The notes under the pieces are model-generated. The model was not told the DNA's origin and searched no databases. It saw only the letters and a list, made by a program, of their open reading frames with translations. From IMG/VR virus record IMGVR_UViG_3300010885_010146, positions 1 to 34,266 of that record: DNA of 34,266 bases; one strand, 5' to 3'. A program made the translations under genes and the position numbers. The first letter of the stretch is position 1. Each line of letters begins with the position of its first letter. Positions 676-23,601 of this stretch are shown here, one piece after another. This DNA comes from a virus.

Positions 676-2265
676 TTACACCGAAGTAGTTAAAATAAAG
701 TTTCTAAGTGTCCCTAGGGTTAGGTCTACCCCACCTTTGTCGTCTATACCTTCGCCGTCCATAACTGCATTGGCTACTGAGTTTTTTTGTTGCAAAGACT
801 CGTGTTGACGAATTTCTATTGAACCGGACACTAATAAGTCTTGGATTACAATAGTTTCCCATGTAGAAGACGCCCTTTTTATTCTTCCGTTACGTTGGGT
901 TGCCGCTCCAGAAGACCACGGGAGATCATAGTTAATAAGAAGATTGGCAGCAGGTAAATCAACACCGTAACCACCAGCGTCAGAGCTAATAAGAACCCTA
1001 ACATCAGGGTCAGTATTAAAAGCAATTTTATTATCCTCTTTCGTTCTAGCATCAAGTTGGCCTGTATAAGTGCGGCAAAGGCTTGACCCCAGCTTATCTT
1101 GAATCATCTTTACCATATCTACATACGTGGCAAAAATTACAACTTTATTATCGGGGCGTTGGTCTAAAAAGTCTTTAACATACTCAATTAAAGTATCCAT
1201 TTTAGGCGACGCAAGCACGCCATCAAGATACCCACCGTCTTTGAGTTCATAAGCATACTTAGAACCCTCCCCCGTTAAACCTTCAAATTTCTCAGCACTA
1301 GTCCTTAACAGCTCTGGGTGTGAGCACAGCATTTTAAGGCAGCCAACTTTAGACATTATAATCCCACGAAGTTCATCAGCTTGGCTACCTTGAGCGCTTT
1401 GATACCCGTAGTGAGCCATAACATTAAACGAACCACCAAAAAGTGTTTGAGCGTTATCTAAATCAAACAACAAGTCATTAACAATTTTTTTATACAGCTT
1501 TGCTGATTTTCTATCAAAGAAAACAAGTAAAGGATCTTTGTGTATGGAGTCCGGAAGAAACGGCTTGACATCCTCATCTTTTTGAGACTTGCGAACAGCC
1601 GCCTCTTTCATTTTCGTATGTAGCGTAGGTAAATTTCTATACCTATCAACACCGCCCCAATTATTACGAACGATAAATGCTGAATCAAAAATATCAAAAC
1701 GACCTAACACATCCTTATCTACAAATTGCATAATTGAATACAGTTCTTCGGGACGCCCATTTTCAATAGGAGTGCCGGTAAGAGCAAATTTAATTGGGGT
1801 TCCAGAAAGTTTTTTTACATGTTTAGCGCGTTTAGATTTAAAAGATTTAATTGCGGTAGCCTCGTCAAGAACCACATAACCGCGGGGAAGTTTTTTTATA
1901 CGTTCCCAGTCATTAACAACTTGTTCATAATTCATAATAATGTAGTCAACACCAGAAGTTTGCCAATCCATTGCGCTGGCATATTGGGCAGCACGTTGTT
2001 TTGGGGTTCCATCTATTACTAGAGGAATAGAAGTTCCACTAGTAAATTTAGTAATTTGGTTAGCCCATTGATACTTTAAGCTAGATAAACAGATTACTAA
2101 CCCGGGCTCTTGTATCTCTTTTGCATCCATTAACCGCTCAATAGCGGCAATAGTTAAAACGGTTTTACCTAAACCTAAGTCATAAGCAACAAGCATAGTT
2201 TTTCTATCAAACATGCGCTCAACGGCTTCTACTTGGTAAGGCAAAAGCGTTCCAGTAAATGACAC
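676..2265 (-). CDS. SNF2-family DEAD/H-like helicase (phage type)
   Basis: This 529-aa superfamily 2 ATPase of the SWI2/SNF2 type probably translocates on double-stranded DNA during replication, recombination or remodelling. Visible motifs in order are a Q-like motif LPYQVEAVERM (8-18), Walker A GLGKT (31-35), DEAT (134-137) as motif II, TGTPIENG (163-170) as motif III, and a C-terminal RecA lobe with SSDAGGYGVDL and the arginine-finger motif QRNGRIKR. It has no accessory nuclease or chromatin domain. SNF2 helicases of about 450-550 aa are frequent in phage replication modules. Translation appears to begin at GTG (2265-2263); an in-frame stop lies just upstream, no clear Shine-Dalgarno is visible, and a terminator precedes the gene, so it may have its own promoter and a leaderless start (inference). 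Confidence 0.9.
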   Translation of the reverse strand: MSFTGTLLPYQVEAVERMFDRKTMLVAYDLGLGKTVLTIAAIERLMDAKEIQEPGLVICLSSLKYQWANQITKFTSGTSIPLVIDGTPKQRAAQYASAMDWQTSGVDYIIMNYEQVVNDWERIKKLPRGYVVLDEATAIKSFKSKRAKHVKKLSGTPIKFALTGTPIENGRPEELYSIMQFVDKDVLGRFDIFDSAFIVRNNWGGVDRYRNLPTLHTKMKEAAVRKSQKDEDVKPFLPDSIHKDPLLVFFDRKSAKLYKKIVNDLLFDLDNAQTLFGGSFNVMAHYGYQSAQGSQADELRGIIMSKVGCLKMLCSHPELLRTSAEKFEGLTGEGSKYAYELKDGGYLDGVLASPKMDTLIEYVKDFLDQRPDNKVVIFATYVDMVKMIQDKLGSSLCRTYTGQLDARTKEDNKIAFNTDPDVRVLISSDAGGYGVDLPAANLLINYDLPWSSGAATQRNGRIKRASSTWETIVIQDLLVSGSIEIRQHESLQQKNSVANAVMDGEGIDDKGGVDLTLGTLRNFILTTSV

Positions 2266-2290
2266 ACAAAAAGACTACACCACACTAGGC
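2245..2290 (-). promoter_or_regulatory. Possible promoter with leaderless start for the SNF2 gene
   Basis: Between the terminator tail and the SNF2 GTG codon the minus strand carries TAGTCT (fits a TAnnnT -10) with its last T six nt upstream of the GTG. No Shine-Dalgarno is seen. Transcription starting at or next to the GTG would give a leaderless mRNA, a common initiation mode in Actinobacteria. No convincing -35 hexamer is visible, so this is weakly supported. Confidence 0.2.
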
Positions 2291-2318
2291 AAAAAGAAAA
2301 CCCACCCCGAAGGGTGGG
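2291..2318 (-). terminator. Intrinsic terminator after the M23 gene
   Basis: On the minus strand CCCACCC - TTCG - GGGTGGG forms a perfect 7-bp GC-rich stem (2318-2301) with a stable UUCG tetraloop, followed at once by TTTTCTTTTT (2300-2291). It lies 18 nt past the M23 stop and 25 nt before the SNF2 start, so it should end the replication/lysin transcript and separate it from the SNF2/NlpC/tRNA unit. Confidence 0.9.
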
Positions 2319-2335
2319 CTATCTTTAAGAAAAGA

Positions 2336-2740
2336 CTATGCGTCTAAAAGTGCCTGTGGGTCAAGCCCGCCGCCTTTTTTCCAGCCTGGTCCTGCCTGTA
2401 ATTCCATATGTAAATGTGGACCCGTGCAGTTTCCGTCTGCTCCAACTTTTCCAATAACGTCTCCAACTGCAAGGACCTGTCCGACCTTGACGCTGTTAGA
2501 AGACAAGTGAGCAAATAGTAAATGTCCACCTTCAACTTTCATAAGGACTGAGTGCTGACCAAAGGCAGCGCCCCAACATTGGCCTACTTTAACAACTTTG
2601 CCATCAACTGGAGCAACAACTACAGCTCCAGTTGGCGCGGCGTAGTCAACGCCTTCATGTTTTCCTGAGGACCATCGTTTTCCAGCAACTCCAAAGGGTG
2701 TTGTAACTTTGTATTTTGCGTCTTTCATTGGCGATGCCAT
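2336..2740 (-). CDS. M23 (LytM/peptidase_M23) metallopeptidase, putative lysin
   Basis: This 134-aa protein consists almost wholly of one M23 domain, a zinc endopeptidase that cuts peptidoglycan cross-bridges. HxxxD at His28/Asp32 (HEGVDYAAP) and His111 of GPHLHME should bind zinc; His78 (FAHL) and His109 fit the two catalytic histidines. All key residues are present, so the enzyme looks active. No signal peptide, transmembrane segment or wall-binding domain is seen, so export would need a holin or the protein acts from the virion. The start ATG has a strong AGGAG five nt upstream. An inverted repeat lies in the leader and a terminator follows the stop. Placement just after the replisome genes suggests expression with them or from a local promoter. 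Family firm; lysis role inferred. Confidence 0.88.
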   Translation of the reverse strand: MASPMKDAKYKVTTPFGVAGKRWSSGKHEGVDYAAPTGAVVVAPVDGKVVKVGQCWGAAFGQHSVLMKVEGGHLLFAHLSSNSVKVGQVLAVGDVIGKVGADGNCTGPHLHMELQAGPGWKKGGGLDPQALLDA

Positions 2741-2753
2741 ATGAACTCCTAAG

Positions 2754-2796
2754 ATTATTGTTTACGGGTTAATCCCCGTTATCTATAAACAATAAT
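2754..2796 (-). promoter_or_regulatory. Long inverted repeat in the leader of the M23 gene
   Basis: Perfect 11-nt arms (2754-2764 and 2786-2796; TAAACAATAAT and its complement) enclose a second hairpin with ACGGG/CCCGT arms (2764-2768 and 2775-2779). In RNA this gives a long stem with a 7-nt one-sided bulge that ends 3 nt before the AGGAG ribosome site (2750-2746). It could be an RNA regulatory or stabilising structure, or a repressor operator as DNA. There is no U-tract after it, so it is not an intrinsic terminator. Confidence 0.55.
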
Positions 2797-2858
2797 ACCA
2801 AAGCTGTTATAACAATTCCTATACATAACAAACTAATAATTGTGCTAAAGTTCAACAA
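2769..2858 (-). CDS. Candidate 29-aa single-transmembrane micropeptide (holin-like?)
   Basis: Between the primase stop and the M23 gene, a TTG-started frame encodes 29 residues: a short polar start (NFST), an unbroken hydrophobic run of about 19 residues (IISLLCIGIVITALVLLFI) and a DNGD tail. GGGAG at the end of the primase gene lies about 10 nt upstream of the first TTG. Its position directly before a lysin with no export signal is where a holin or pinholin-type gene would be expected. Against it: no ATG, very short, and AT-rich DNA tends to encode hydrophobic residues by chance. I cannot assign a family. Confidence 0.3.
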   Translation of the reverse strand: MLNFSTIISLLCIGIVITALVLLFIDNGD

Positions 2859-2859
2859 A

Positions 2860-3810
2860 TTACACAGTCTCCCAAGATGACCACCGAATTGAATGCCTAG
2901 CGGTATCAATACCATGTAAAATTTCAGCCTTGCTCATAGCGCCAATATCCTTAACATCAACACCGTTGTAATTAAAAAACCACGCTTCAAACCCCAACTC
3001 AATGGTGGCATCCGAAATAACCGATGACGATTTTTGGCCCGCATCATCAGCGTCCATAGCAACAATAACTTTGTCAGCAAGACGAATAATCTTTAACTGC
3101 TCTTTAGAAACTATTGATCCAAAAGTAGCCATACCACCAGAAATTCCTACTGACTCTAGCCGAACTACGTCTAGAGGGGACTCCACAACAATTATAGGAC
3201 CTCCGGTGTACTTATCCCAGCCAAAAATAGAGGTGCTTTTTTTTACGCCAGTAGGCCTGTTTCTAAAAAATCTTCCCCGGTAACCTTTTTCTTGCCACCC
3301 TAAAAGACTTTGCGAGTGTGGGTTACGAATAGGAATGATCCAATTTTCTAAACGAGCATCCCAAAGAATTCCGTGCTTAGCAGCAGCTTCTGCGGTTAGC
3401 CCGCGAGAACGCAAAGCCTCTAAAGGTGGGGCTACAAATGCCGCTAACGAAGCTTCTGAAACATGCACAATGTCATCAAATATTTCTTTCTTTTTATTAG
3501 TGGCTCGCGCAAAAGATTCACTTAAGTCTCCACCAACGTTAAGCCACTGCTTGGCTTGTTCAAAATCAAACCCATTTTCGGCCCATAGTTGTTTAACGTA
3601 AGCAACAAGGTAAGGTAACGTGCCCTTAAACTGGCAGGAAAAACAAATATGAGCACCAGTTTCTGCGTTGATGTACCAAGAAGGATTTCTATCTTCATGG
3701 CCCACACGTTCTTTGTGTCCTGGACAAAAGCCTTGAACTTCACTACCTCGAGCGCCAACGTACTCTACACCAAGACGATCAAGAACACCTTGAAGCTCTT
3801 CAACTGTCAT
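2860..3810 (-). CDS. DnaG-like DNA primase (zinc-finger + TOPRIM)
   Basis: This 316-aa protein should make RNA primers for phage DNA synthesis. The N-terminus has a zinc-binding module: CPGH near residue 28 and CFSC near residue 56, in a CHC2-type arrangement. A catalytic core follows, with the TOPRIM acidic motifs VVESPLDVV (Glu) and VIVAMDADDAG (Asp-x-Asp) around residues 205-255. It is about half the length of bacterial DnaG and lacks a separate C-terminal helicase-interaction domain, as in many phage primases. Its ATG overlaps the stop of the upstream helicase gene as ATGA, so the two are probably translationally coupled and work together at the fork. No frameshift or missing motif is evident. 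Confidence 0.88.
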   Translation of the reverse strand: MTVEELQGVLDRLGVEYVGARGSEVQGFCPGHKERVGHEDRNPSWYINAETGAHICFSCQFKGTLPYLVAYVKQLWAENGFDFEQAKQWLNVGGDLSESFARATNKKKEIFDDIVHVSEASLAAFVAPPLEALRSRGLTAEAAAKHGILWDARLENWIIPIRNPHSQSLLGWQEKGYRGRFFRNRPTGVKKSTSIFGWDKYTGGPIIVVESPLDVVRLESVGISGGMATFGSIVSKEQLKIIRLADKVIVAMDADDAGQKSSSVISDATIELGFEAWFFNYNGVDVKDIGAMSKAEILHGIDTARHSIRWSSWETV

Positions 3811-5036
3811 AGGTCATCACTAGTTAACTCGCGAAATTCTCCTGTATTCCAATCCCAAAGTAAAGAAACTTCCATAGGACCAGTATTACGGCTAGCAAGA
3901 ACCTTTAGCAACCTAGTGTCATCTATGTCTTCTTCTTCACGTTGAAGCCCAAAAATAACATCAGCATCTTGGAAGAACGAAGACGAGTAACCAATAGAGT
4001 CTGCAGTTACATTACCCTTTTTCATCTTCCAACTAAGAGCCTGCGTTGAAATAACAATAGGAATTTGAGCCCGCTGGGCTAAACGCTTTAATGACCGCGT
4101 AATGTTAGTTAAAGCTTGCGGGGTATTAGCCTCACCAGATTGCTCGTCAATCATTAAGTACACGCCGTCAATAAACAATACGTCTGGCTGAAGCATTTGA
4201 ATTTTATGCGCCATTCCAGAAACAACTGATGCGCTAGCTGAATCAGTAAGCCAAAACTTATGATTTACCATTCCAATCCCACGAAGTTTTGCTTTGTATC
4301 TTGCTTCTTCTTCAGAGGTTAAAGTTCCCGTTAGTAGTCGGTGGTGTGATATCCGGGAACGCATGGCGTCGTATCTAGCAATCTGTTCTTGGTTACTCAT
4401 TTCAAAAGATTGAAATACTGGTACTGAACCCTTGTTGTGAATGTTGTGCGCAATCTGCAATGCAAGAGTGGATTTACCAGTTTTTGGAGGAGCAACAATA
4501 ACTACTAGCTGTCCTTTTTGTAACCCACTTGTTGCTTGATCTATAGACGGGAACCCCGTAGGTAGCCCACGCAAACCGTTAGGTAAATTTTTGCGCTCTA
4601 AATATTCTTCCCAACGCTTTTCAGCGCCATGTGTAATGTCAATGTCACTTGTTCCAGCAAGACCGTCGTTTTCAAGTTTAACCAGTCCTCGCTGTAAAGT
4701 TGTAAGTGCGCGTTCGTGGTCGGTGTGAAGTTCTATGTCTTTAATAGCGTCAGCAAACGCGGTATTGATAATACTAATGCGACGAGAAGCAATAACTTTG
4801 TCAATTAAAAAATCAACGTTATCTTCAACAGGCTTAAACTCAAACGTAGGAAAGTTTTCAACAATAACTTCGTGGCTTGGGCACTCAGCATACTTAGACT
4901 GGTGGTCTCTTACAAAAACCCAAACTCGTTTGTCAATGTCATCATGAAACCAAGTGTCGGAAACATTCCGCATAAATAGCGGGGATAAGTCTCTGTCTTG
5001 TAGTGCTCGGTTTAGTAGTCGGTTTTCGTAGTTCAT
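3807..5036 (-). CDS. DnaB-like replicative helicase
   Basis: This 409-aa RecA-fold helicase is expected to unwind DNA 5' to 3' as a hexamer at the replication fork. Residues 1-130 resemble a small helical DnaB N-terminal domain. The core starts near GLPTGFPSIDQATSGL; Walker A is APPKTGKST, followed by the FEMS motif (DnaB motif H1a), Walker B DVLFIDGVYLM, the H3-type IVISTQAL and the H4-like QDADVIFGLQRE. The start ATG has AGGGG five nt upstream. It sits between a small unknown gene and the primase, which it overlaps by 4 nt. A loader (DnaC-like) is encoded three genes upstream in the same operon, consistent with a self-contained replisome. Confidence 0.9.
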   Translation of the reverse strand: MNYENRLLNRALQDRDLSPLFMRNVSDTWFHDDIDKRVWVFVRDHQSKYAECPSHEVIVENFPTFEFKPVEDNVDFLIDKVIASRRISIINTAFADAIKDIELHTDHERALTTLQRGLVKLENDGLAGTSDIDITHGAEKRWEEYLERKNLPNGLRGLPTGFPSIDQATSGLQKGQLVVIVAPPKTGKSTLALQIAHNIHNKGSVPVFQSFEMSNQEQIARYDAMRSRISHHRLLTGTLTSEEEARYKAKLRGIGMVNHKFWLTDSASASVVSGMAHKIQMLQPDVLFIDGVYLMIDEQSGEANTPQALTNITRSLKRLAQRAQIPIVISTQALSWKMKKGNVTADSIGYSSSFFQDADVIFGLQREEEDIDDTRLLKVLASRNTGPMEVSLLWDWNTGEFRELTSDDL

Positions 5037-5045
5037 ATAATCCCC

Positions 5046-5441
5046 TTAAAAATCTAATCCCAAGCGACCATACATCAATTGATGTTGTGGGTCAATTACT
5101 CCAATAACTTCTGGTCTATACGGTAAGTCATCTACTAACTTTTTAGGTGAGGAGTAACTTGAAAAATACCTAAAAGGATTTGTTCCAACTCGATCTATAT
5201 CGTTATATAAAAGTTCTAATTGATCGTATCCATAATCAAAAGATACAAGCTCTAACGTAACTCCAGCATGTGTAGTGTATATGTAAAATTTGTTAAGAAG
5301 CAACCTATCATATTTTATATCTTCGCTCATAACTGGAAACACTTTAAATTTCTTTTTTATAATAGGAAACTTAATAAAAAGTATGTCTGAGTTAACAAGC
5401 ACGCGTTTTGGCATGTCATTGCTAATGTCCCCTTTTAACAT
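5046..5441 (-). CDS. Hypothetical protein in the replication operon
   Basis: I do not recognise this 131-aa protein. It is rich in Tyr, Lys, Leu and Asp with a predicted mixed alpha/beta character, and has no signal peptide, membrane segment or Cys motif. The middle segment (around SFDYGYDQLELLYNDIDRV) looks like beta strand followed by helix. It starts 3 nt after the SWIM-protein stop and ends 9 nt before the helicase start, so it is part of the replication transcript. The ATG at 5441 has only a distant GAGG upstream; a second in-frame ATG (5414) would drop nine residues. A role as helicase accessory or DNA-metabolism factor is possible from position alone. Confidence 0.7.
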   Translation of the reverse strand: MLKGDISNDMPKRVLVNSDILFIKFPIIKKKFKVFPVMSEDIKYDRLLLNKFYIYTTHAGVTLELVSFDYGYDQLELLYNDIDRVGTNPFRYFSSYSSPKKLVDDLPYRPEVIGVIDPQHQLMYGRLGLDF

Positions 5442-5444
5442 AGT

Positions 5445-5741
5445 TTAACAGACCTCTATTTTTCCGTATTTAATAATATGTTGCCTAAAAGATTCTGGTG
5501 AATCCATTGCCCGTTCCATATCTTCTTTGTTACAACGTTCGGACAACTCTAATGGGTAAGTGCCTTTGTTTTGTTGTACGCGAGCTTCTACAAGCTTTGT
5601 GTGTTTGCAAACTTTACGCCCAGCAAAACCTGGGCAAGTGCATACAAAATTTTTATTTTTTAAAAGGCTGACTTCAAAAATTCCTGGACCTGGAGTACCA
5701 GCTGGACTCAAAAATATTTGAAACAACATAGCGTCTTCCAT
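5445..5741 (-). CDS. Small SWIM-type zinc-finger protein
   Basis: This protein of about 98 aa carries a CxC-x8-CxH motif (Cys34, Cys36, Cys45, His47, in the segment CTCPGFAGRKVCKH), which matches the SWIM zinc-finger pattern. SWIM domains bind zinc and mediate DNA or protein contacts; in other systems they accompany SNF2 helicases, MuDR transposases and recombination mediators. Here it stands alone. I chose the ATG at 5741 because GGAGG lies five nt upstream; an in-frame ATG at 5753 overlaps the loader stop (TAATG) but has no close ribosome site. It lies between the helicase loader and the replicative helicase. Partnership with the SNF2 helicase of this genome is a guess. Confidence 0.78.
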   Translation of the reverse strand: MEDAMLFQIFLSPAGTPGPGIFEVSLLKNKNFVCTCPGFAGRKVCKHTKLVEARVQQNKGTYPLELSERCNKEDMERAMDSPESFRQHIIKYGKIEVC

Positions 5742-5752
5742 CAAGTCCTCCA

Positions 5753-6442
5753 TTATTTACGTAAGTCCCCTCTAATAGATTCTAGTTCAATAGTTGCAAA
5801 AGCTTCGTTTATAAATGACTCAGTTGCTCCGCCGTAAGCCGCTTCCCAAGACTTAACTGGAAGATTAGTAGTGACTATAGTGGGAAGTCCGTTATTGAAT
5901 CTGGTACGTAAAATATGATGAAGCATAGTTCTCTGCCAGCCACTGCCTGACGCGTGCTCTTTACCTACATCATCAATAACTAAGACTCGAATATTGTAAG
6001 CGTCATCGGCGCATTCCCCATGCATACCTAAAAACAAACGATCTTGTTCGTCAGTTCCTCCACTAATTAACTCGCCTTTAAGTTCAATAATAGAATTAAA
6101 AGTTGAAAAATAACAAGGCTTTATAAGAACTTTACCGTCGTTTATCCCAAAAGATTCTAAAGGAAATGTTCTAATCATTTCTTGAATGACTGCTAAAGCA
6201 AGAGTGGTCTTACCGTGACCAGGCTCTCCAACAAGAAGTAATCCTTTGCCACAAGTCTTTTGTCCGTCAGCCCTAATGACATCTCCGTCTTTTACTTTTT
6301 TAATCCACCTACGAACGGATTCTAAATCTTTTTTAGTAATAGCTTCACAGTCAGTAAGTTCCCAACCAAGACGAGCCCTAGGTATACCAGCAATCTTTGT
6401 CCAAGACTTTCTTCGAACTGGTAACTCATCGGGATTAATCAT
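5753..6442 (-). CDS. DnaC/IstB-like AAA+ helicase loader
   Basis: This protein of about 229 aa is an AAA+ ATPase of the DnaC/IstB class that would load the DnaB-like helicase onto the origin. Walker A GEPGHGKT is at about 72-79, Walker B VLVIDD at about 153-158 and a sensor-1 segment TIVTTNLP at about 188-195. The C-terminal arginine-finger/sensor-2 end is short and less typical (ESIRGDLRK). I prefer the ATG at 6442, which has GGAG four nt upstream and overlaps the preceding stop; a longer frame begins with TTG at 6472 without a ribosome site. It is in the operon that also encodes the helicase and primase. Confidence 0.87.
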   Translation of the reverse strand: MINPDELPVRRKSWTKIAGIPRARLGWELTDCEAITKKDLESVRRWIKKVKDGDVIRADGQKTCGKGLLLVGEPGHGKTTLALAVIQEMIRTFPLESFGINDGKVLIKPCYFSTFNSIIELKGELISGGTDEQDRLFLGMHGECADDAYNIRVLVIDDVGKEHASGSGWQRTMLHHILRTRFNNGLPTIVTTNLPVKSWEAAYGGATESFINEAFATIELESIRGDLRK

Positions 6443-6599
6443 CTGACTCCGTAGTAGTGGCGGCATTTGCAATGTAATTTTTCATGCGATCAAGTGTCTC
6501 GCGGCTAATCCCCGCGTTCATGTACTTAATCTGTTCTTGCAACTCAGCCTCTATTTGCGCTTCAGCAGCACTAATTGCTTCGTCTTTCATTTTACTCAT
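6435..6599 (-). CDS. Small helical protein between initiator and loader
   Basis: This 54-aa protein starts MSKMKDEAIS and looks mostly alpha-helical, with an acidic/Ala-rich first helix (AAEAQIEAELQEQI) and a second helix containing RETLDRMKNYI. It has no recognisable motif. The ATG at 6599 has AGGAG seven nt upstream, overlaps the end of the initiator gene (ATGAGTAA) and its stop overlaps the start of the DnaC-like gene, so all three are coupled. A longer frame upstream (to 6644) lies inside the initiator gene and lacks a ribosome site. It could be an adaptor between initiator and loader, but that is speculation from position. Confidence 0.7.
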   Translation of the reverse strand: MSKMKDEAISAAEAQIEAELQEQIKYMNAGISRETLDRMKNYIANAATTTESDD

Positions 6600-7491
6600 A
6601 CAACCACTCCTGTGATTTACTGGCTTGCGCCTTAGCAGTTTCAACTTCGTCGTCTGTTCTTACCATAGCCTTAGCTTGATTGGCAAACTCGCCCCATCTG
6701 TTAGCCAGCATCCTCCATAAAATATCAGGGTCGTTATATTTTTCAAAGTTAGTAACCGAAAAAAATAGATCAAGAATTTGAAACTCTAGTTCGCCATTAG
6801 TATCATGCTTCATGCGCTGTTGATTAAACGCGGCGTTTAGCCTTTTCATGTTAGGCGTCCAAAGCTTTAAACCCCAAGTTAAATTGGTGCGATAAATAAA
6901 CTCATACGAAATATCGCTAGAGGTCCATTTAATTTTTGGAACATTATGGCGATAAATAATTTTAGTTTCATGTTGTTTAACTTTAGCTTCTTGGTAAGCA
7001 GTTCGCTTTTCGCGTTCCGCGCGGGCTCGATCTTCTAGTCTGTCGTCATCTGACGACGTGTTATTAAACATTCCATCCCAAGACATACCTAAAACCTCCA
7101 AATCAACTTTTCTAAAATTCTCTTCATGGGGGGTCTCCCCCAATTCTTTACTAGTTAAGCTAGCTAAACTATAGGGACTATATAGCTTACTCTGCAGAGA
7201 CAGGGGGTCGGAAAACCCGACCCCTGCAAACTCTACTTGTGGGGTCGGAAAACCCGACCCTTGAAGGTAGTCAAATCCGGACTGGGTAACCCATACTTTA
7301 GTCTCTAGTCGGTTACCAATTTTGTAGGTTTTTTCTGCTACATACCCAAGTAATTTTAATTCCTTGAGTGAGGTAAGCCAAAAATCCCTCCCAGTGCCTC
7401 TATACGCCTCTCTAAGAGACTCTACTGTGGGTTTGGTACCCAGGTATGCACAACGAAATAGAGCTGCTTCTGACTTAGGAGAAAGGCTCAT
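6592..7491 (-). CDS. Winged-helix replication-initiator-like protein
   Basis: This 299-aa protein begins with a winged-helix-like domain (about 1-76): helices around SEAALFRCAYL and VESLREAY, then DFWLTSLKELKLLGYV as a candidate recognition helix and a wing (TYKIGNRLETKVWVTQSG). A low-complexity linker (about 78-125) follows, then a charged region and a C-terminal half with several Trp and Tyr residues. The architecture resembles lambda O or DnaD-type phage initiators: DNA-binding head, linker, and a tail recruiting the helicase loader. Supporting this, two 20-bp palindromic repeats lie in the DNA coding for the linker, as origin iterons do inside lambda O, and the loader gene is nearby. It overlaps the upstream gene as ATGA. 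Family not assigned with certainty. Confidence 0.65.
   Translation of the reverse strand: MSLSPKSEAALFRCAYLGTKPTVESLREAYRGTGRDFWLTSLKELKLLGYVAEKTYKIGNRLETKVWVTQSGFDYLQGSGFPTPQVEFAGVGFSDPLSLQSKLYSPYSLASLTSKELGETPHEENFRKVDLEVLGMSWDGMFNNTSSDDDRLEDRARAEREKRTAYQEAKVKQHETKIIYRHNVPKIKWTSSDISYEFIYRTNLTWGLKLWTPNMKRLNAAFNQQRMKHDTNGELEFQILDLFFSVTNFEKYNDPDILWRMLANRWGEFANQAKAMVRTDDEVETAKAQASKSQEWLYE
7204..7223. repeat. Palindromic iteron-like repeat, copy 1
   Basis: First copy of a 20-bp unit with GGGTCGG/CCGACCC arms and an A-rich loop. The flanks extend the symmetry (CAG...CTG) with a one-base offset. An identical copy is at 7241-7260. Confidence 0.85.
7241..7260. repeat. Palindromic iteron-like repeat, copy 2
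   Basis: Second identical copy of the 20-bp palindromic unit. Both copies are in coding sequence but the conservation is at DNA level: the spacing of 37 bp puts the two copies in different reading frames, so it is not a protein repeat. Confidence 0.85.
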
Positions 7492-8051
7492 TTATTCAAA
7501 ACCTGCTTTAATTCGCGAGCAATAGCCTCCGCAAATACCTTTGCTATGTATTCAATAGCAGAATATAAAGGGTCCGATTCCTCTTCATATTCTTCAGGAT
7601 CTTCTAGGTCATCTATAGTATCATCGCTAGTTTCTTGCTCTGGTTCTTGTACTAACTCTTGTTCTGGGATTTCTGGGGCTTTAGAAACTGTAGCTCCTTC
7701 TACCGCAAGTAACGCTACAAGACCATTTGTAAAATCAAACGCTGGAGTGTTTAAATCTTTAGCTAGTACGAGTGCGTTGGAAGCCTCTGGATCTTCGTCG
7801 CTCCAAAACAAAAAGAAAGCCGAGGATGAGTTGGGTTTAACCCCTAGATCCTCGGAACCTGAACTTGCCGTGTACTGAACTTTCTTATCTTCAGCGTAAG
7901 ATTTAAGCCAAAATTGCCCTTCGGACATAACTTTTTCGTAATGAAAATGGATATGCAATTCAGGGTTAGCATAGATGTAGTCGTCAATCAAGGCTTCAAC
8001 GTTAGCCCTGCTCGTCTTTCCATTGCCAACCACGTAAATATGATCGTACAT
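7488..8051 (-). CDS. Hypothetical acidic protein with Rossmann-like N-terminus
   Basis: This 187-aa protein opens the replication module. The N-terminal 115 residues alternate strands and helices: IYVVGNGKTSRANVEALIDDYI, then HIHFHY, AFFLFWSDEDPEASNALVLAKDL and PAFDFTNGL. This suggests a Rossmann-like or nucleotide-sensing fold (SLOG/DprA-like is possible but unproven). Residues of about 120-160 form a very acidic linker (QEPEQETSDD, DDLEDPEEYEEE), and the C-terminus is an amphipathic helix (YIAKVFAEAIARELKQVL). It is translated from a strong AGGAG that is buried in a hairpin, under a candidate promoter. It overlaps the initiator start by 4 nt. An early regulatory role is suggested by position only. 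Confidence 0.75.
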   Translation of the reverse strand: MYDHIYVVGNGKTSRANVEALIDDYIYANPELHIHFHYEKVMSEGQFWLKSYAEDKKVQYTASSGSEDLGVKPNSSSAFFLFWSDEDPEASNALVLAKDLNTPAFDFTNGLVALLAVEGATVSKAPEIPEQELVQEPEQETSDDTIDDLEDPEEYEEESDPLYSAIEYIAKVFAEAIARELKQVLNK

Positions 8052-8054
8052 AAT

Positions 8055-8075
8055 GTCTCCTGACGGTTAGGAGAC
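8055..8075 (-). promoter_or_regulatory. Hairpin that sequesters the ribosome site of the 187-aa gene
   Basis: On the minus strand a perfect 7-bp stem, GTCTCCT (8075-8069) with AGGAGAC (8061-8055), closes a 7-nt loop. The right arm contains the AGGAG ribosome site, which is 5 nt from the ATG at 8051. In any transcript reading through from the tail operon the ribosome site would be paired. Confidence 0.75.
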
Positions 8076-8104
8076 TATACTACAACTATTTTTTAATGGC
8101 GCAA
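8074..8104 (-). promoter_or_regulatory. Candidate promoter overlapping the RBS hairpin
   Basis: TATAGT (8079-8074, five of six matches to TATAAT) would start transcripts near 8067, just past the left arm of the hairpin, leaving the AGGAG free. The upstream region is AT-rich (AAAAAATAG); the only -35-like hexamer, TTGCGC near 8104-8099, is poor and 19 nt away. Plausible start point for the replication transcript. Confidence 0.4.
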
Positions 8105-8106
8105 AT

Positions 8107-10227
8107 TTATGATGGGAAAGTGACGGTTCCAGTACCAGCAGTAAAGGAATATACCCTGTAACCTGCGCGTGAAACCGTGCTAACTGTATGAGTCAACCCC
8201 CCACTTACAGTTAAAGCAGGGTAACTACTTGGGTACGCAAGAATAACTATTCCGCTACCACCATTACCGCCATAAGAGTTGTAGCCATTTGCAGAAGCTC
8301 CACCGCCACCGCCACCTTTACCATCTACACCTGTGCCGCCTTGTGTAGCGCCCCAAGAAGCTCCTGTACCACCGCCGTAATTAACGCCATTGTAAACAGG
8401 ACTGGCTGCTGGGTTAGACCCTTGGTCTCCTTCGCCACCAACACCACCGCCGGCATAACCTATGGAAGTTCCAGTGATTGATGATAGGACACCAACACCT
8501 GGAAGGGCATAGTGTTGTCCAGCAGTGCCCGCGCCACCACCACCTCCGCCGTAGGAGTTACCGCTAATTCCACCACCAAATCCTTGATTAACTGTACCCG
8601 GAGAGCCACCATTTACGTCGTTATTTCCGCCGCCTCCGCCGCCGCCAGAACCACCGGAAGTTCCACTGCTCCTAGCTCCACCAGCTCCACCTCCTACAGT
8701 TGTTATAGTTGAGAAGATAGACCCCACTCCAGCACTTCCTGTGCCGTTTTGACCGAAACCTCCGGTACCAACTTGTATCGAATGTGTGGATCCAAATACT
8801 GCAGCAAATGCTGGTTCTGCAGATGCCCCACCACCAGAAGGTCCTGCGTTAGTTCTAAGACCACCAGCACCGCCGCCACCGCCAGCTACTTGCCAGTTAG
8901 CGTAAGGGAAACCACCTGCTCCACCACCGCCACCAGCTATAACTAGATACTCAGTTGGAACGGCTTGCGCGTTAGTTGTGATACTTGCCGAGGCTGAGTA
9001 CGCAGAAGTTAATTGTCCGTTAGTTGCCCGTATCCGGTAATAATATTGAGTGCTGTAAGCCGTAGTTGTGTCCGTGTACGGAAGTGTTGCTGTAGTTGCA
9101 AGCACAGACCATGTAGTTCCATTTATAGATCTATCAATAGTCCATTGAGTTATAGTTGGGTTAGATATGTAACTGCTAACATTTACAACTATATTTGCTG
9201 TTACACCAGACACGGTAGACAAGCTAGGTGTTGTCATTGGAGTTGTAATAAAGTATGGAAGTACTGATGCGCTCTCAAGATAACTATTGTAAGAGCCGTT
9301 AAACGCACGAACTTGATACTTGTAGTAAACAGAATTAGTTACTGCAGTATCTACATAAGAAGTGTTGTTTCCAGAATTATAAATTGTGGTCCAAGCTGAC
9401 CAAGTTGTATTGTTTGTAGAACTAGCTTTTTGCAGTTCGTAGATAGTAGGTAAAGGTGAAGCAACTGTTGGCCTTACCCATGAAACGGAAATGCTATTAG
9501 CTGTGCTTGCTGTAGCTGACGCTGTAATAGAAGTCATAGCGTACATAAGCCTTGGAACAGTTATTTGTGAAGTTACTGCAGGTAGTACTTTAAAAGAGTT
9601 AGACGCTACAAAACTGTACGTGTACACAGTGTCCGCAATTAATCCAGTAATAGTTGTAGACCCTGATCCAGGCATTGGAGACGGGGATGTAAGTGTAGTT
9701 GTGGTAGTACCAACAGTTTGAGTGATTATAAACCCAGCAATTGGGTTTGATCCACCCGTAGCGGACCAATTTAAAGCTACGCTAACGCTACCGTCTGTTG
9801 GGTACGGGTTATAAATATCTGCCTGAATGTTAGTTGTAATGTCTAGGAAATACGGAGAAACAGTAGCTGGTTCTGGGGTTGCATATTTTATTTCGTAAAC
9901 CCCGGACATACTATTTGAAGCGTACGCTGTAACAGCGCTTGTGCCGGTACCAATTACAGGAGCTGTTCCGGTAGCAAAAACTGAACTGGAGCTAACAATA
10001 AATGAAGTTGCTGTAGGAATATTAACAATAGTTAACTTAGATATATTTGCTGAAGTCCCAGCTGTAATTCCTAATACACTTACATTTTGCCCCACTTCAA
10101 AATCATGCGGGTCTTGCGTCGTGTATTTAATCTGGTTATACCCAACAGATGTTGGAGTATAAGTAGCTGCTGTAACTACAGCGGTGGAAATACCTTTATT
10201 AATAGATTTAGGCATAATACAAACCAT
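8107..10227 (-). CDS. Tail fibre/adhesin with Fn3 domains and a glycine-rich module
   Basis: This 706-aa protein is the last gene of the tail operon. After an N-terminal beta region (about 1-120) come three fibronectin type III-like domains (about 124-225, 230-327 and 328-420), each ending in the typical YxYxVxAxNG pattern (for example YYKYQVRAFNG and YYYRIRATNG). Residues of about 424-655 form a glycine-rich module opening EYLVIAGGGGGAGG, and a short beta C-terminus follows (AGTGTVTFPS). Fn3 and glycine-rich modules are common in phage receptor-binding or surface-adhesion proteins. The glycine-rich module is paralogous to two in the adhesin at 30333-32015. It overlaps the upstream baseplate gene by 20 nt; the internal ATG at 10215 is an alternative start. 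Neither start has a clear ribosome site. Confidence 0.82.
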   Translation of the reverse strand: MVCIMPKSINKGISTAVVTAATYTPTSVGYNQIKYTTQDPHDFEVGQNVSVLGITAGTSANISKLTIVNIPTATSFIVSSSSVFATGTAPVIGTGTSAVTAYASNSMSGVYEIKYATPEPATVSPYFLDITTNIQADIYNPYPTDGSVSVALNWSATGGSNPIAGFIITQTVGTTTTTLTSPSPMPGSGSTTITGLIADTVYTYSFVASNSFKVLPAVTSQITVPRLMYAMTSITASATASTANSISVSWVRPTVASPLPTIYELQKASSTNNTTWSAWTTIYNSGNNTSYVDTAVTNSVYYKYQVRAFNGSYNSYLESASVLPYFITTPMTTPSLSTVSGVTANIVVNVSSYISNPTITQWTIDRSINGTTWSVLATTATLPYTDTTTAYSTQYYYRIRATNGQLTSAYSASASITTNAQAVPTEYLVIAGGGGGAGGFPYANWQVAGGGGGAGGLRTNAGPSGGGASAEPAFAAVFGSTHSIQVGTGGFGQNGTGSAGVGSIFSTITTVGGGAGGARSSGTSGGSGGGGGGGNNDVNGGSPGTVNQGFGGGISGNSYGGGGGGAGTAGQHYALPGVGVLSSITGTSIGYAGGGVGGEGDQGSNPAASPVYNGVNYGGGTGASWGATQGGTGVDGKGGGGGGASANGYNSYGGNGGSGIVILAYPSSYPALTVSGGLTHTVSTVSRAGYRVYSFTAGTGTVTFPS

Positions 10228-21402: not shown

Positions 21403-23601
21403 TTAGACAGAGGTGGTTACGGTAGCGCCACCATCGAGCTGACCGATACGAATGATTACGAATTCAGCTGGCTTTTGCAAAGCAACACCAACTTCAATAT
21501 GTAGTTCACCAGCGTTAATTGAGTTAACGGTATTAATAGATGAATCACATTTAACATAGAATGCTTGGCTAGCAGTAGATCCCGCAAGACCCCCACGACG
21601 CCAGAAATCATTCAAGAAACTACTAACTACGCCATTAACAACAACCCATAGGTTGGAGTCATTTGGCTCAAACACTGCAAAAGCTGTAATGTTCTTTAAG
21701 TTAGACCCTAAATAATTAAGAGTACGACGAACTGGTACATACTTATCTGCAGTGGAACTGCTTAGAGTGCGAGCGCCCATTACACAAATACCTGAACCTG
21801 GAACAAATCTAATAATGTTTAAGTTTGTAGGGTTATTAGAAATTAAATTAAATTCCGTGTTACTTACTGACGGGACAGACACAGCAGTTCTAACGATAGA
21901 TGCGGAACCTGCGGGAGCCTTGAAGACCCCGCGAGAGTTATCCGTTTCCGAATAGACCGCAGCAATAGCACCTCCGGGAGCAATGCTTCTTGTTCCGCCT
22001 GTTGTTGAAGCTGGATCAGCAATAACAATGTACGGGTAGTAAGCTGCGCCAAAGTTTCTATTACTTGCGTAAGAGCCTATGCCTATATTAGTTGTTGTCC
22101 CTAAAACGGTGCTTACAGACTCATTAGCCGCGTCAATAATTACAAAAGAATCACCGCGTCCAGCTGCGTATGCTAAAGCCGCGTTAATAGTGGTTGTATT
22201 AGAATTACCTGCCCAGTTAATTAGAAGAGGAGCAGTAACTGAATCAAGTTGCGAAAGAGTAGTGGATGCAGAATTTTGAGCAGTTCCGTCAATTCCAATA
22301 ACTACCGAATAAGTAATATTTGATTCGCTAGCAACACCTACGCGTATTTCCCCAGGTGAAGTCTGCGAAAAACTACTTACATTCCAGTTAAACGAGTAGC
22401 TAGCAGCCGAGTTAACGTTGTAAGAAGTGGCCCCACCCCAACTACCTGTGAATGCGGGTAGACGACGAGCTCCGGTAGCGGATGAGACTAAATCTGTTAA
22501 TTCAATCCAAGTTGACGACACTACCGCAGGAGCATACCGAGCGCTAGTTGGGTCCATGTTTAAGTAAGTAAATCGTTCAATAAGATCTGCAGCAGTAATT
22601 TCCGTAGAAGATGTTGCGGAAATATCAAAATACACTTCTAGGTCAAAGTGATCTGCTAATGCGTTAGGTGTAACGCTTACCCATAAGCTATTCCCCCACG
22701 AACCAGCCTGTTTAGCTGCTACACGTAAAGTAGTTTTTGAGCTTGGAGCGCCGCCTGTTACAGTTACAGATGCTGTAGTAGCAGTTGTTGTAGATGCAAT
22801 AGCCGACCCAGTATCTGCAATAATTTTAAGCGAAGTATTAGTAGCGCTGTCTACTACCCAGTTATTAGTATTAAGGAAGCTGTAATTTCCAGCGGGAACA
22901 CCCGCAAAAGATACTGTAGAGCCCGGTACAAACGTAGCAAATGGAGTACCAGCAGTAGCGGTAATAGATAGAACTTTAGTAGCGTAGTCTGTAGTGCCGT
23001 TTAAAGTAAGAGCGCCAGTAACTACTGTTTGAGCATTTTGATCGCGAAGATCAACAGACGCTTTAATCGCACCATTATTAATATCTCGAACAATGTATGC
23101 TTGTGAGCCACCGTTGTCAAAAAACGTTTTTACAGCGTATTTAAGGTCAGAGTCAGGAGCCGCAGATAAAGTAGCGTTACTAAGGGCAACGGTTGGGACT
23201 TTATCTACAACAAACACAGTTGCACTTGTTACAGAAATAACTTTAGTATCAGACTGTAAGGTTCCAGTGCCAGTAACTACAGTAACTACAGAACCAATCT
23301 GTAGTTTATCTGTTGAAGCGCAAGTTATAGTTGCAGAAGAACTTACTGCGTTGCTAAGTATAGTGTTAGGTGTGCCACTAAAAGTATTAGTGTTTGCACC
23401 ATAACTAAACAAGTTAACAAACTCGTTCCAGTTAGTAAGTAAAGTAGGTACGCCAACAACATTACCGTTTGAAGTTGTTGTTGGGCCGCGGTCAGAAAAT
23501 CCAATAAAAGCCGCTACAGATTCAGAAGTTACTGAAAATATAGGGACATTTGGCGTTAGTGTTTCTTCGATGTAAACACCAGGCTTATTGTATGTAGCCA
23601 T
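21403..23601 (-). CDS. Tail sheath protein
   Basis: This 732-aa protein is the contractile sheath. The N-terminus YNKPGVYIEETLTP is diagnostic, followed by VAAFIGFSDRGP and LLTNWNEFVNLFSYG. The conserved C-terminal domain includes RTLNYLGSNLKNITAFAVFEPND, FLNDFWRRGGLAGSTASQAFYVKCD and GELHIEVGVALQKPAEFVIIRIGQ. The middle (about 80-480) carries Thr/Ser/Ala-rich inserted beta domains, as in larger T4-type sheaths. AAGGAG lies close to the ATG. It is followed by the tube gene in the standard order. Confidence 0.95.
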   Translation of the reverse strand: MATYNKPGVYIEETLTPNVPIFSVTSESVAAFIGFSDRGPTTTSNGNVVGVPTLLTNWNEFVNLFSYGANTNTFSGTPNTILSNAVSSSATITCASTDKLQIGSVVTVVTGTGTLQSDTKVISVTSATVFVVDKVPTVALSNATLSAAPDSDLKYAVKTFFDNGGSQAYIVRDINNGAIKASVDLRDQNAQTVVTGALTLNGTTDYATKVLSITATAGTPFATFVPGSTVSFAGVPAGNYSFLNTNNWVVDSATNTSLKIIADTGSAIASTTTATTASVTVTGGAPSSKTTLRVAAKQAGSWGNSLWVSVTPNALADHFDLEVYFDISATSSTEITAADLIERFTYLNMDPTSARYAPAVVSSTWIELTDLVSSATGARRLPAFTGSWGGATSYNVNSAASYSFNWNVSSFSQTSPGEIRVGVASESNITYSVVIGIDGTAQNSASTTLSQLDSVTAPLLINWAGNSNTTTINAALAYAAGRGDSFVIIDAANESVSTVLGTTTNIGIGSYASNRNFGAAYYPYIVIADPASTTGGTRSIAPGGAIAAVYSETDNSRGVFKAPAGSASIVRTAVSVPSVSNTEFNLISNNPTNLNIIRFVPGSGICVMGARTLSSSTADKYVPVRRTLNYLGSNLKNITAFAVFEPNDSNLWVVVNGVVSSFLNDFWRRGGLAGSTASQAFYVKCDSSINTVNSINAGELHIEVGVALQKPAEFVIIRIGQLDGGATVTTSV

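Follow-up and report, generated by a model that had tools for sequence, protein, structure and literature searches.

In the window, a 34,266-nt contig from an uncultured water phage, the main genes lie on the minus strand. Positions 676–8051 form a replication module with genes for a DnaC-like loader, DnaB, a primase and an SNF2 helicase (PHROG/Pfam matches), all on that strand. We found that these genes come after the one encoding a 187-aa protein (g187), in line with the first-pass annotation, which had placed that gene at the start of the module. The gene block on the other side of g187 (8107–33953) includes Gly-rich fibre-like genes and a tail sheath gene (21403–23601), the latter called by its similarity to annotated sheath genes. 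The nearest cultured relatives, as judged by sheath and DnaB, are Streptomyces phages (~31–35% identity).

The g187 product is a fast-evolving protein with an invariant G-x-G near the N terminus, and its structure was predicted to contain a Rossmann-like core (pLDDT 86), for which no confident PDB match was obtained. No homologue of g187 turned up when named phages and genomes were searched; gene order and alignment make gp96 of GiJojo its probable distant cultured counterpart. One contig, L001, encodes downstream proteins identical to those of the window, but within the C-terminal part of g187 (positions 1–224 of L001, compared with 7488–7700 of the window) identity falls to only 62%, a switch which marks either a recombination or an assembly boundary.

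Table 1. Genes and leader elements at the border between the fibre-like gene and the replication module (window coordinates).
Feature	Position	Strand	Remarks
g187, opens the replication module, 187 aa, predicted Rossmann-like core	7488..8051	-	kept with its leader in relatives
g299, follows g187	6592..7491	-	4-nt overlap with the end of g187; putative coupling
Gly-rich fibre-like gene 5′ of g187	8107..10227	-	stop codon 8109-8107; presumed source of read-through
-35-like hexamer TTGCGC	8099..8104	-	TTG at this exact spacing in 20/43 leaders
-10 hexamer TAGTAT (TAnnnT)	8077..8082	-	position from alignment with relatives
Earlier-named box TATAGT, overlaps TAGTAT and first two nt of 5′ arm	8074..8079	-	present; relatives align elsewhere
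Predicted start zone, 5-10 nt past -10	8067..8072	-	promoter geometry (PMC5730371, PMC6448022)
Hairpin 5′ arm GTCTCCT	8069..8075	-	read in sequence and folding; conserved, covarying
Hairpin loop AACCGTC, 7 nt	8062..8068	-	folding; length differs among relatives
Hairpin 3′ arm AGGAGAC, holds Shine-Dalgarno (SD) AGGAG 8061-8057	8055..8061	-	sequence and folding
Outer stem of read-through RNA, pairs part of AUG: 8086-8078 with 8052-8050 and 8048-8043	8043..8086	-	predicted fold

The g187 leader in the window

Read along the minus strand, the leader consists of TTGCGC…TTG, TAGTAT, A, GTCTCCT, AACCGTC, AGGAGAC, ATT and the ATG start codon of g187 (8051–8049). The 7-bp hairpin at 8055–8075 had been described as perfect, with AGGAG in its 3′ arm, and this was confirmed on the minus strand, together with a 7-nt loop. 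The SD is sequestered in a leader hairpin, as is characteristic of the T4 gene e-type class of ribosome binding site (RBS) hairpins. The hairpin pattern occurs once in the window (0 expected from shuffles), the 29-nt hairpin has a z of −3.7 with no shuffle folding equally well, and a comparable arm is present at 1 of the 21 minus-strand SD–ATG sites of the window. Folding of positions 8106–8022 (z = −3.25) predicts the additional outer stem of the read-through RNA. Rfam covariance models gave no matches at E ≤ 1 across 7600–8500.

An intrinsic terminator or attenuator at the hairpin was considered and rejected: the 3′ arm is followed by ATTATG, not by a U tract, and terminator scans were negative there. 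A clear intrinsic-terminator-like hairpin is located at 2299–2320 of the minus strand (AGCCCACCC TTCG GGGTGGGTT TTCTTTTTG), where it separates a 134-aa gene from that of the SNF2 helicase.

As for the promoter, the TATAGT box named earlier is indeed present, but the −10 element conserved in relatives is the overlapping TAGTAT, located 3 nt upstream. The first-pass annotation had also noted that a good −35 box was missing. In fact, TTGCGC lies 16 nt from TAGTAT, and the −35 element seemed absent because TATAGT had been chosen as the −10 instead of TAGTAT. In mycobacteria, the −10 used by the main sigma factor has the form TAnnnT (PMC6448022). Taken alone, the −35 of the window is only a 4/6 match, and a generic sigma70 promoter scan of the window returned no site at the g187 leader, since its consensus is too strict for this site; on the window sequence alone, the promoter would be unconvincing. 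RNA polymerase usually starts ~7 nt after the −10 (PMC5730371), and it is this usual start region, from roughly +3 to +9 relative to the −10 hexamer, that the hairpin fills with its 5′ arm.

Conservation of the leader among relatives

An IMG/VR helicase search and a g187 profile search yielded about 100 loci, with overlaps, and 43 non-redundant leaders of g187 homologues were compared, the proteins of which are down to about 25% identical. As far as their contigs extend, the loci retrieved with the helicase have one gene order in common: fibre or small gene, g187, g299, loader, helicase and primase. The 43 leaders share a common register: a TAnnnT −10, an RNA stem ~3 nt further on and the SD within its 3′ arm. 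TAnnnT is found within or close to positions −34 to −26 relative to the start codon in 43/43 leaders, and the spacing between TTG and the −10 is exactly 16 nt in 20 leaders and 15–19 nt in 28 (shuffle mean 3.3, maximum 11). By comparison, TAnnnT occupies the equivalent place at 21% of 556 SD+ATG sites from the genomes of 12 relatives and the window, and is combined with TTG at 16 nt at 2.7% of these sites. The stem masking the SD, TAnnnT and the −35 TTG occur together at 8 of 515 gene starts (12 genomes and the window), all eight being g187 leaders, and the model search returned at most one clear leader copy per genome.

We examined the relatives for loss of the stem without covariation, an outcome set beforehand as speaking against the proposed switch, and found that most retain the stem, with compensatory changes, and invariably right behind the conserved promoter-like site. 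The 5′ part pairs better than its own shuffles (p < 0.05) in 32/43 leaders. When arms were swapped between relatives, pairing weakened from −9.1 kcal/mol (native) to −6.9 kcal/mol, and none of 20,000 permutations matched the native pairing (p < 5e-5); within the AGGAG and GGAGG classes taken separately, p was about 0.001 each. On the protein tree, the SD type switches about five times, at least two of these switches being forced by well-supported branches. In the model-based alignment, 87% of stem cells pair, and sliding the stem by one column brings pairing down to 51–62%. Double changes in the stem number 12, against 5.1 in shuffles (0/500 as high), a compensatory count which is partly due to one U-A to C-G pair whose changes track the phylogeny. 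The stem used for the pair counts was that of RNAalifold; the covariance model R1 finds the sites though its stored pairs are off by one column. Outside the SD, pairs are rewritten with complementarity retained, as in GUC/GAC, AGGUU/AACCU, GGUUC/GAACC, GCU/AGC and GGUGUC/GAUACC.

Some leaders show peculiarities of their own. In L024, L028 and L051, small inverted repeats (e.g., CTTGC..GCAAG, AACTTGT..ACAAGTT), which are not conserved, overlie the −35 and the spacer or fall between them and represent a possible operator. In the pairs L062/L063 and L073/L071, one contig lacks roughly 75–100 nt and the two are otherwise 99.9–100% identical. These gaps, found in two strains ~10% apart, end at one common point, CCCTAACAAGGAGG, ~10–20 nt upstream of the g187 start, and take out the promoter and the 5′ arm jointly; they are either real alleles or assembly artefacts.

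Read-through, promoter-born RNA and alternative readings

Folding predicts that read-through RNA is masked and promoter RNA unmasked. In the window, SD opening has a calculated cost of 11.3 kcal/mol in read-through RNA and 1.6 kcal/mol in RNA born at the promoter with a start at +7, and the family medians are about 7.5–7.6 kcal/mol (60 nt of upstream RNA) and 1.9 kcal/mol, respectively. For starts at +1, +5 and +9 the predicted cost is 9.1, 2.5 and 1.5 kcal/mol in the window and 5.8, 4.0 and 1.4 kcal/mol as the family median; other genes of the window mostly need 1–5 kcal/mol. Starts just 1–3 nt past the −10 are predicted to retain the arm and the mask. Relief is below 3 kcal/mol in 12/43 leaders. 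In L080 and L085 the low relief seems to come from an SD mis-assigned by the script, and L035, L039 and L048 look like real exceptions.

The upstream gene, encoded on the same strand, usually ends 35–80 nt before g187; in some relatives this distance is about 270–370 nt and frequently includes one small gene. Some of the upstream genes extend into the promoter at their end. A script scan for terminators, of limited sensitivity (it overlooked the repeat of LuckySocke, 1 of 4 positive controls, although this can be spotted by eye), recognised none at 40 borders of the masked clade, and scans of the window likewise found none between the fibre-like gene and g187. Given the same-strand upstream genes and no terminator found, read-through into g187 is therefore to be expected. 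The cultured Streptomyces phages GiJojo, pSt2308, LuckySocke and BRock (the BRock group) share the gene order, and their replication module likewise opens with a TAnnnT promoter-like site. Unlike the g187 leader, their equivalent border holds a 16–17 bp inverted repeat with a T-rich tail, resembling an intrinsic terminator, which would provide the insulation. Next to the repeat comes a site of the TGCTACAGT type (in BRock, TGGTACAGT); the SD carries no mask and is open (2.4–3.5 kcal/mol). The simplest account of these sequences is that terminator and mask serve as alternative insulators at an equivalent border.

We favour, with a probability of roughly three in four, a translation switch dependent on transcript origin, which would insulate the replication operon from tail-operon read-through and replace a terminator. 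Such a switch had been proposed from the window alone; its layout is supported by the conserved promoter-like site and the covarying stem, with the −10 position and the supposedly missing −35 amended as above. A housekeeping-type promoter (TTGCGC, 16 nt, TAGTAT) would direct a start that we infer to lie inside or just past the hairpin's 5′ arm. The resulting short mRNA, without most of this arm, would leave the SD free, and g187 would be translated. Polymerase arriving from the fibre gene would instead produce the complete hairpin, hide the SD and keep g187 silent on the read-through mRNA. Through the 4-nt overlap, g299 would likewise be silenced if the two genes are coupled, and polarity may perhaps extend the silencing to more of the operon. 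By convention, tail genes are late and replication genes early, and the masked read-through would presumably be late as well. The mask would thus stand in for the intrinsic terminator at the border of the cultured Streptomyces relatives.

The main reservation about the switch concerns the exact start. In actinobacteria, A/G is preferred at +1 (PMC6448022), whereas the zone in which the family would usually start, +5 to +9 past the −10 hexamer, consists nearly entirely of C/T. Because the expected zone is so rich in C/T, transcription may begin at the first A (8068/8067 of the window), elsewhere or at varying positions, which opens a reading akin to pyrC. In pyrC of E. coli and Salmonella, the subject of Wilson (1992) and Sorensen (1993), both listed in PMC5730371, start-site selection is reportedly combined with an RBS-blocking leader hairpin. 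As predicted for g187, transcription there starts inside the 5′ arm of an SD-masking hairpin and the exact start decides translation. At pyrC, a single promoter with starts separated by a few nt senses pyrimidines, whereas the main contrast expected at g187 is between read-through and promoter RNA. By analogy, several starts within the pyrimidine-rich 5′ arm could be used, with nucleotide pools or template state deciding whether the transcript masks itself, besides or instead of the block on read-through. The conserved pyrimidine run of the start zone doubles as the mask arm, the predicted cost of SD opening shifts steeply between starts at +3 and +7, and promoter geometry places the predicted start points in the 5′ arm. 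Yet the run is already accounted for as the complement of the SD, any start at +5 or later is predicted to free the SD in the window, so that most normal starts would escape the mask, and the absence of terminators in exactly the masked clade suits read-through better. We consider this type of start-site switch unlikely. Also tentative, with odds that are only slim, is a combination in which the leader acts as insulator and sensor, small shifts of the start (nucleotide pools, DNA state) setting how much of the arm is carried and tuning entry into phage DNA replication; it is suggested because polymerase would start within the conserved pyrimidine run that is also the mask arm.

Alternatively, a repressor could bind the dyad as a DNA operator that overlaps the promoter, and the hairpin in the RNA would then be incidental. 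An inverted repeat right at the promoter, in one clear copy per genome, would agree with this. An operator, however, would keep its sequence and spacing, and in the relatives the loop length differs by several nt, the stems contain bulges and G-U pairs, the repeat is rewritten with complementarity kept, and one arm is always the SD. The variable loop, bulges and G-U pairs in these sequences point to RNA rather than to a DNA operator, a reading that we regard as quite improbable. We give even less credit to a mask present in all transcripts, either constitutive or controlled by ligand or temperature (a thermosensor or a protein-bound leader), with the true promoter further upstream. Simple SD hairpins commonly control translation, but here a conserved −35/−10 abuts the stem in fixed register, many relatives leave just 35–80 nt to the upstream gene, stem strength is widely variable and Rfam gave no match. 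A chance hairpin next to chance promoter-like letters would fit the weak −35 and the negative generic scan of the window, but is hardly credible in view of the conservation and covariation in 43 divergent leaders and the rarity of the arrangement elsewhere.

Relation to known masked leaders

The transcript-origin-dependent switch that we favour follows a logic known from phage T4. There, the SD or AUG of genes e, soc, 49 and I-TevI lies hidden in hairpins on early read-through RNA, and promoters whose transcripts lack the 5′ strand relieve the block, a masking logic proven for gene e (PMC3014915). The g187 leader has in common with them an SD in the 3′ arm, a promoter transcript without the 5′ arm and read-through from same-strand upstream genes, the last two being predictions here. 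In T4, however, late genes are masked on early RNA by means of phage late promoters, whereas the g187 leader has TTG-16-TAnnnT, belongs to a replication module and would be masked on RNA from tail genes. It is kept down to about 25% protein identity and is not homologous to the T4 hairpins. Descent from the T4 late-gene regulon was rejected: there is no T4-type late promoter TATAAATA at the stem, the conserved site is TTG-16-TAnnnT and the gene opens the replication module.

Further afield, RBS fold-back protects transposase genes of the IS10/IS50 type from outside transcription. Similar to what is predicted for g187, read-through RNA folds over the RBS there, and transcripts that begin at the promoter of the element itself leave it free. 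The setting is an element end in one case and a phage module border in the other, and the sequences are unrelated. Our literature search, which was incomplete in coverage and is not proof of absence, brought up no replication operon with masked late read-through and no description of the g187 leader. The masking logic is known from T4; new are the proposed reversal of timing, the position and the breadth of the g187 leader.

These findings suggest that, at the border of a module, a translational mask can take the place of a terminator in a phage lineage, and that the trick of T4 is used here with its timing reversed and kept across great divergence. For uncultured phages, they give a defined promoter and start region of the replication module. 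They also describe a compact genetic part of about 55 nt, comprising a promoter, a mask and an SD, which should ignore read-through.
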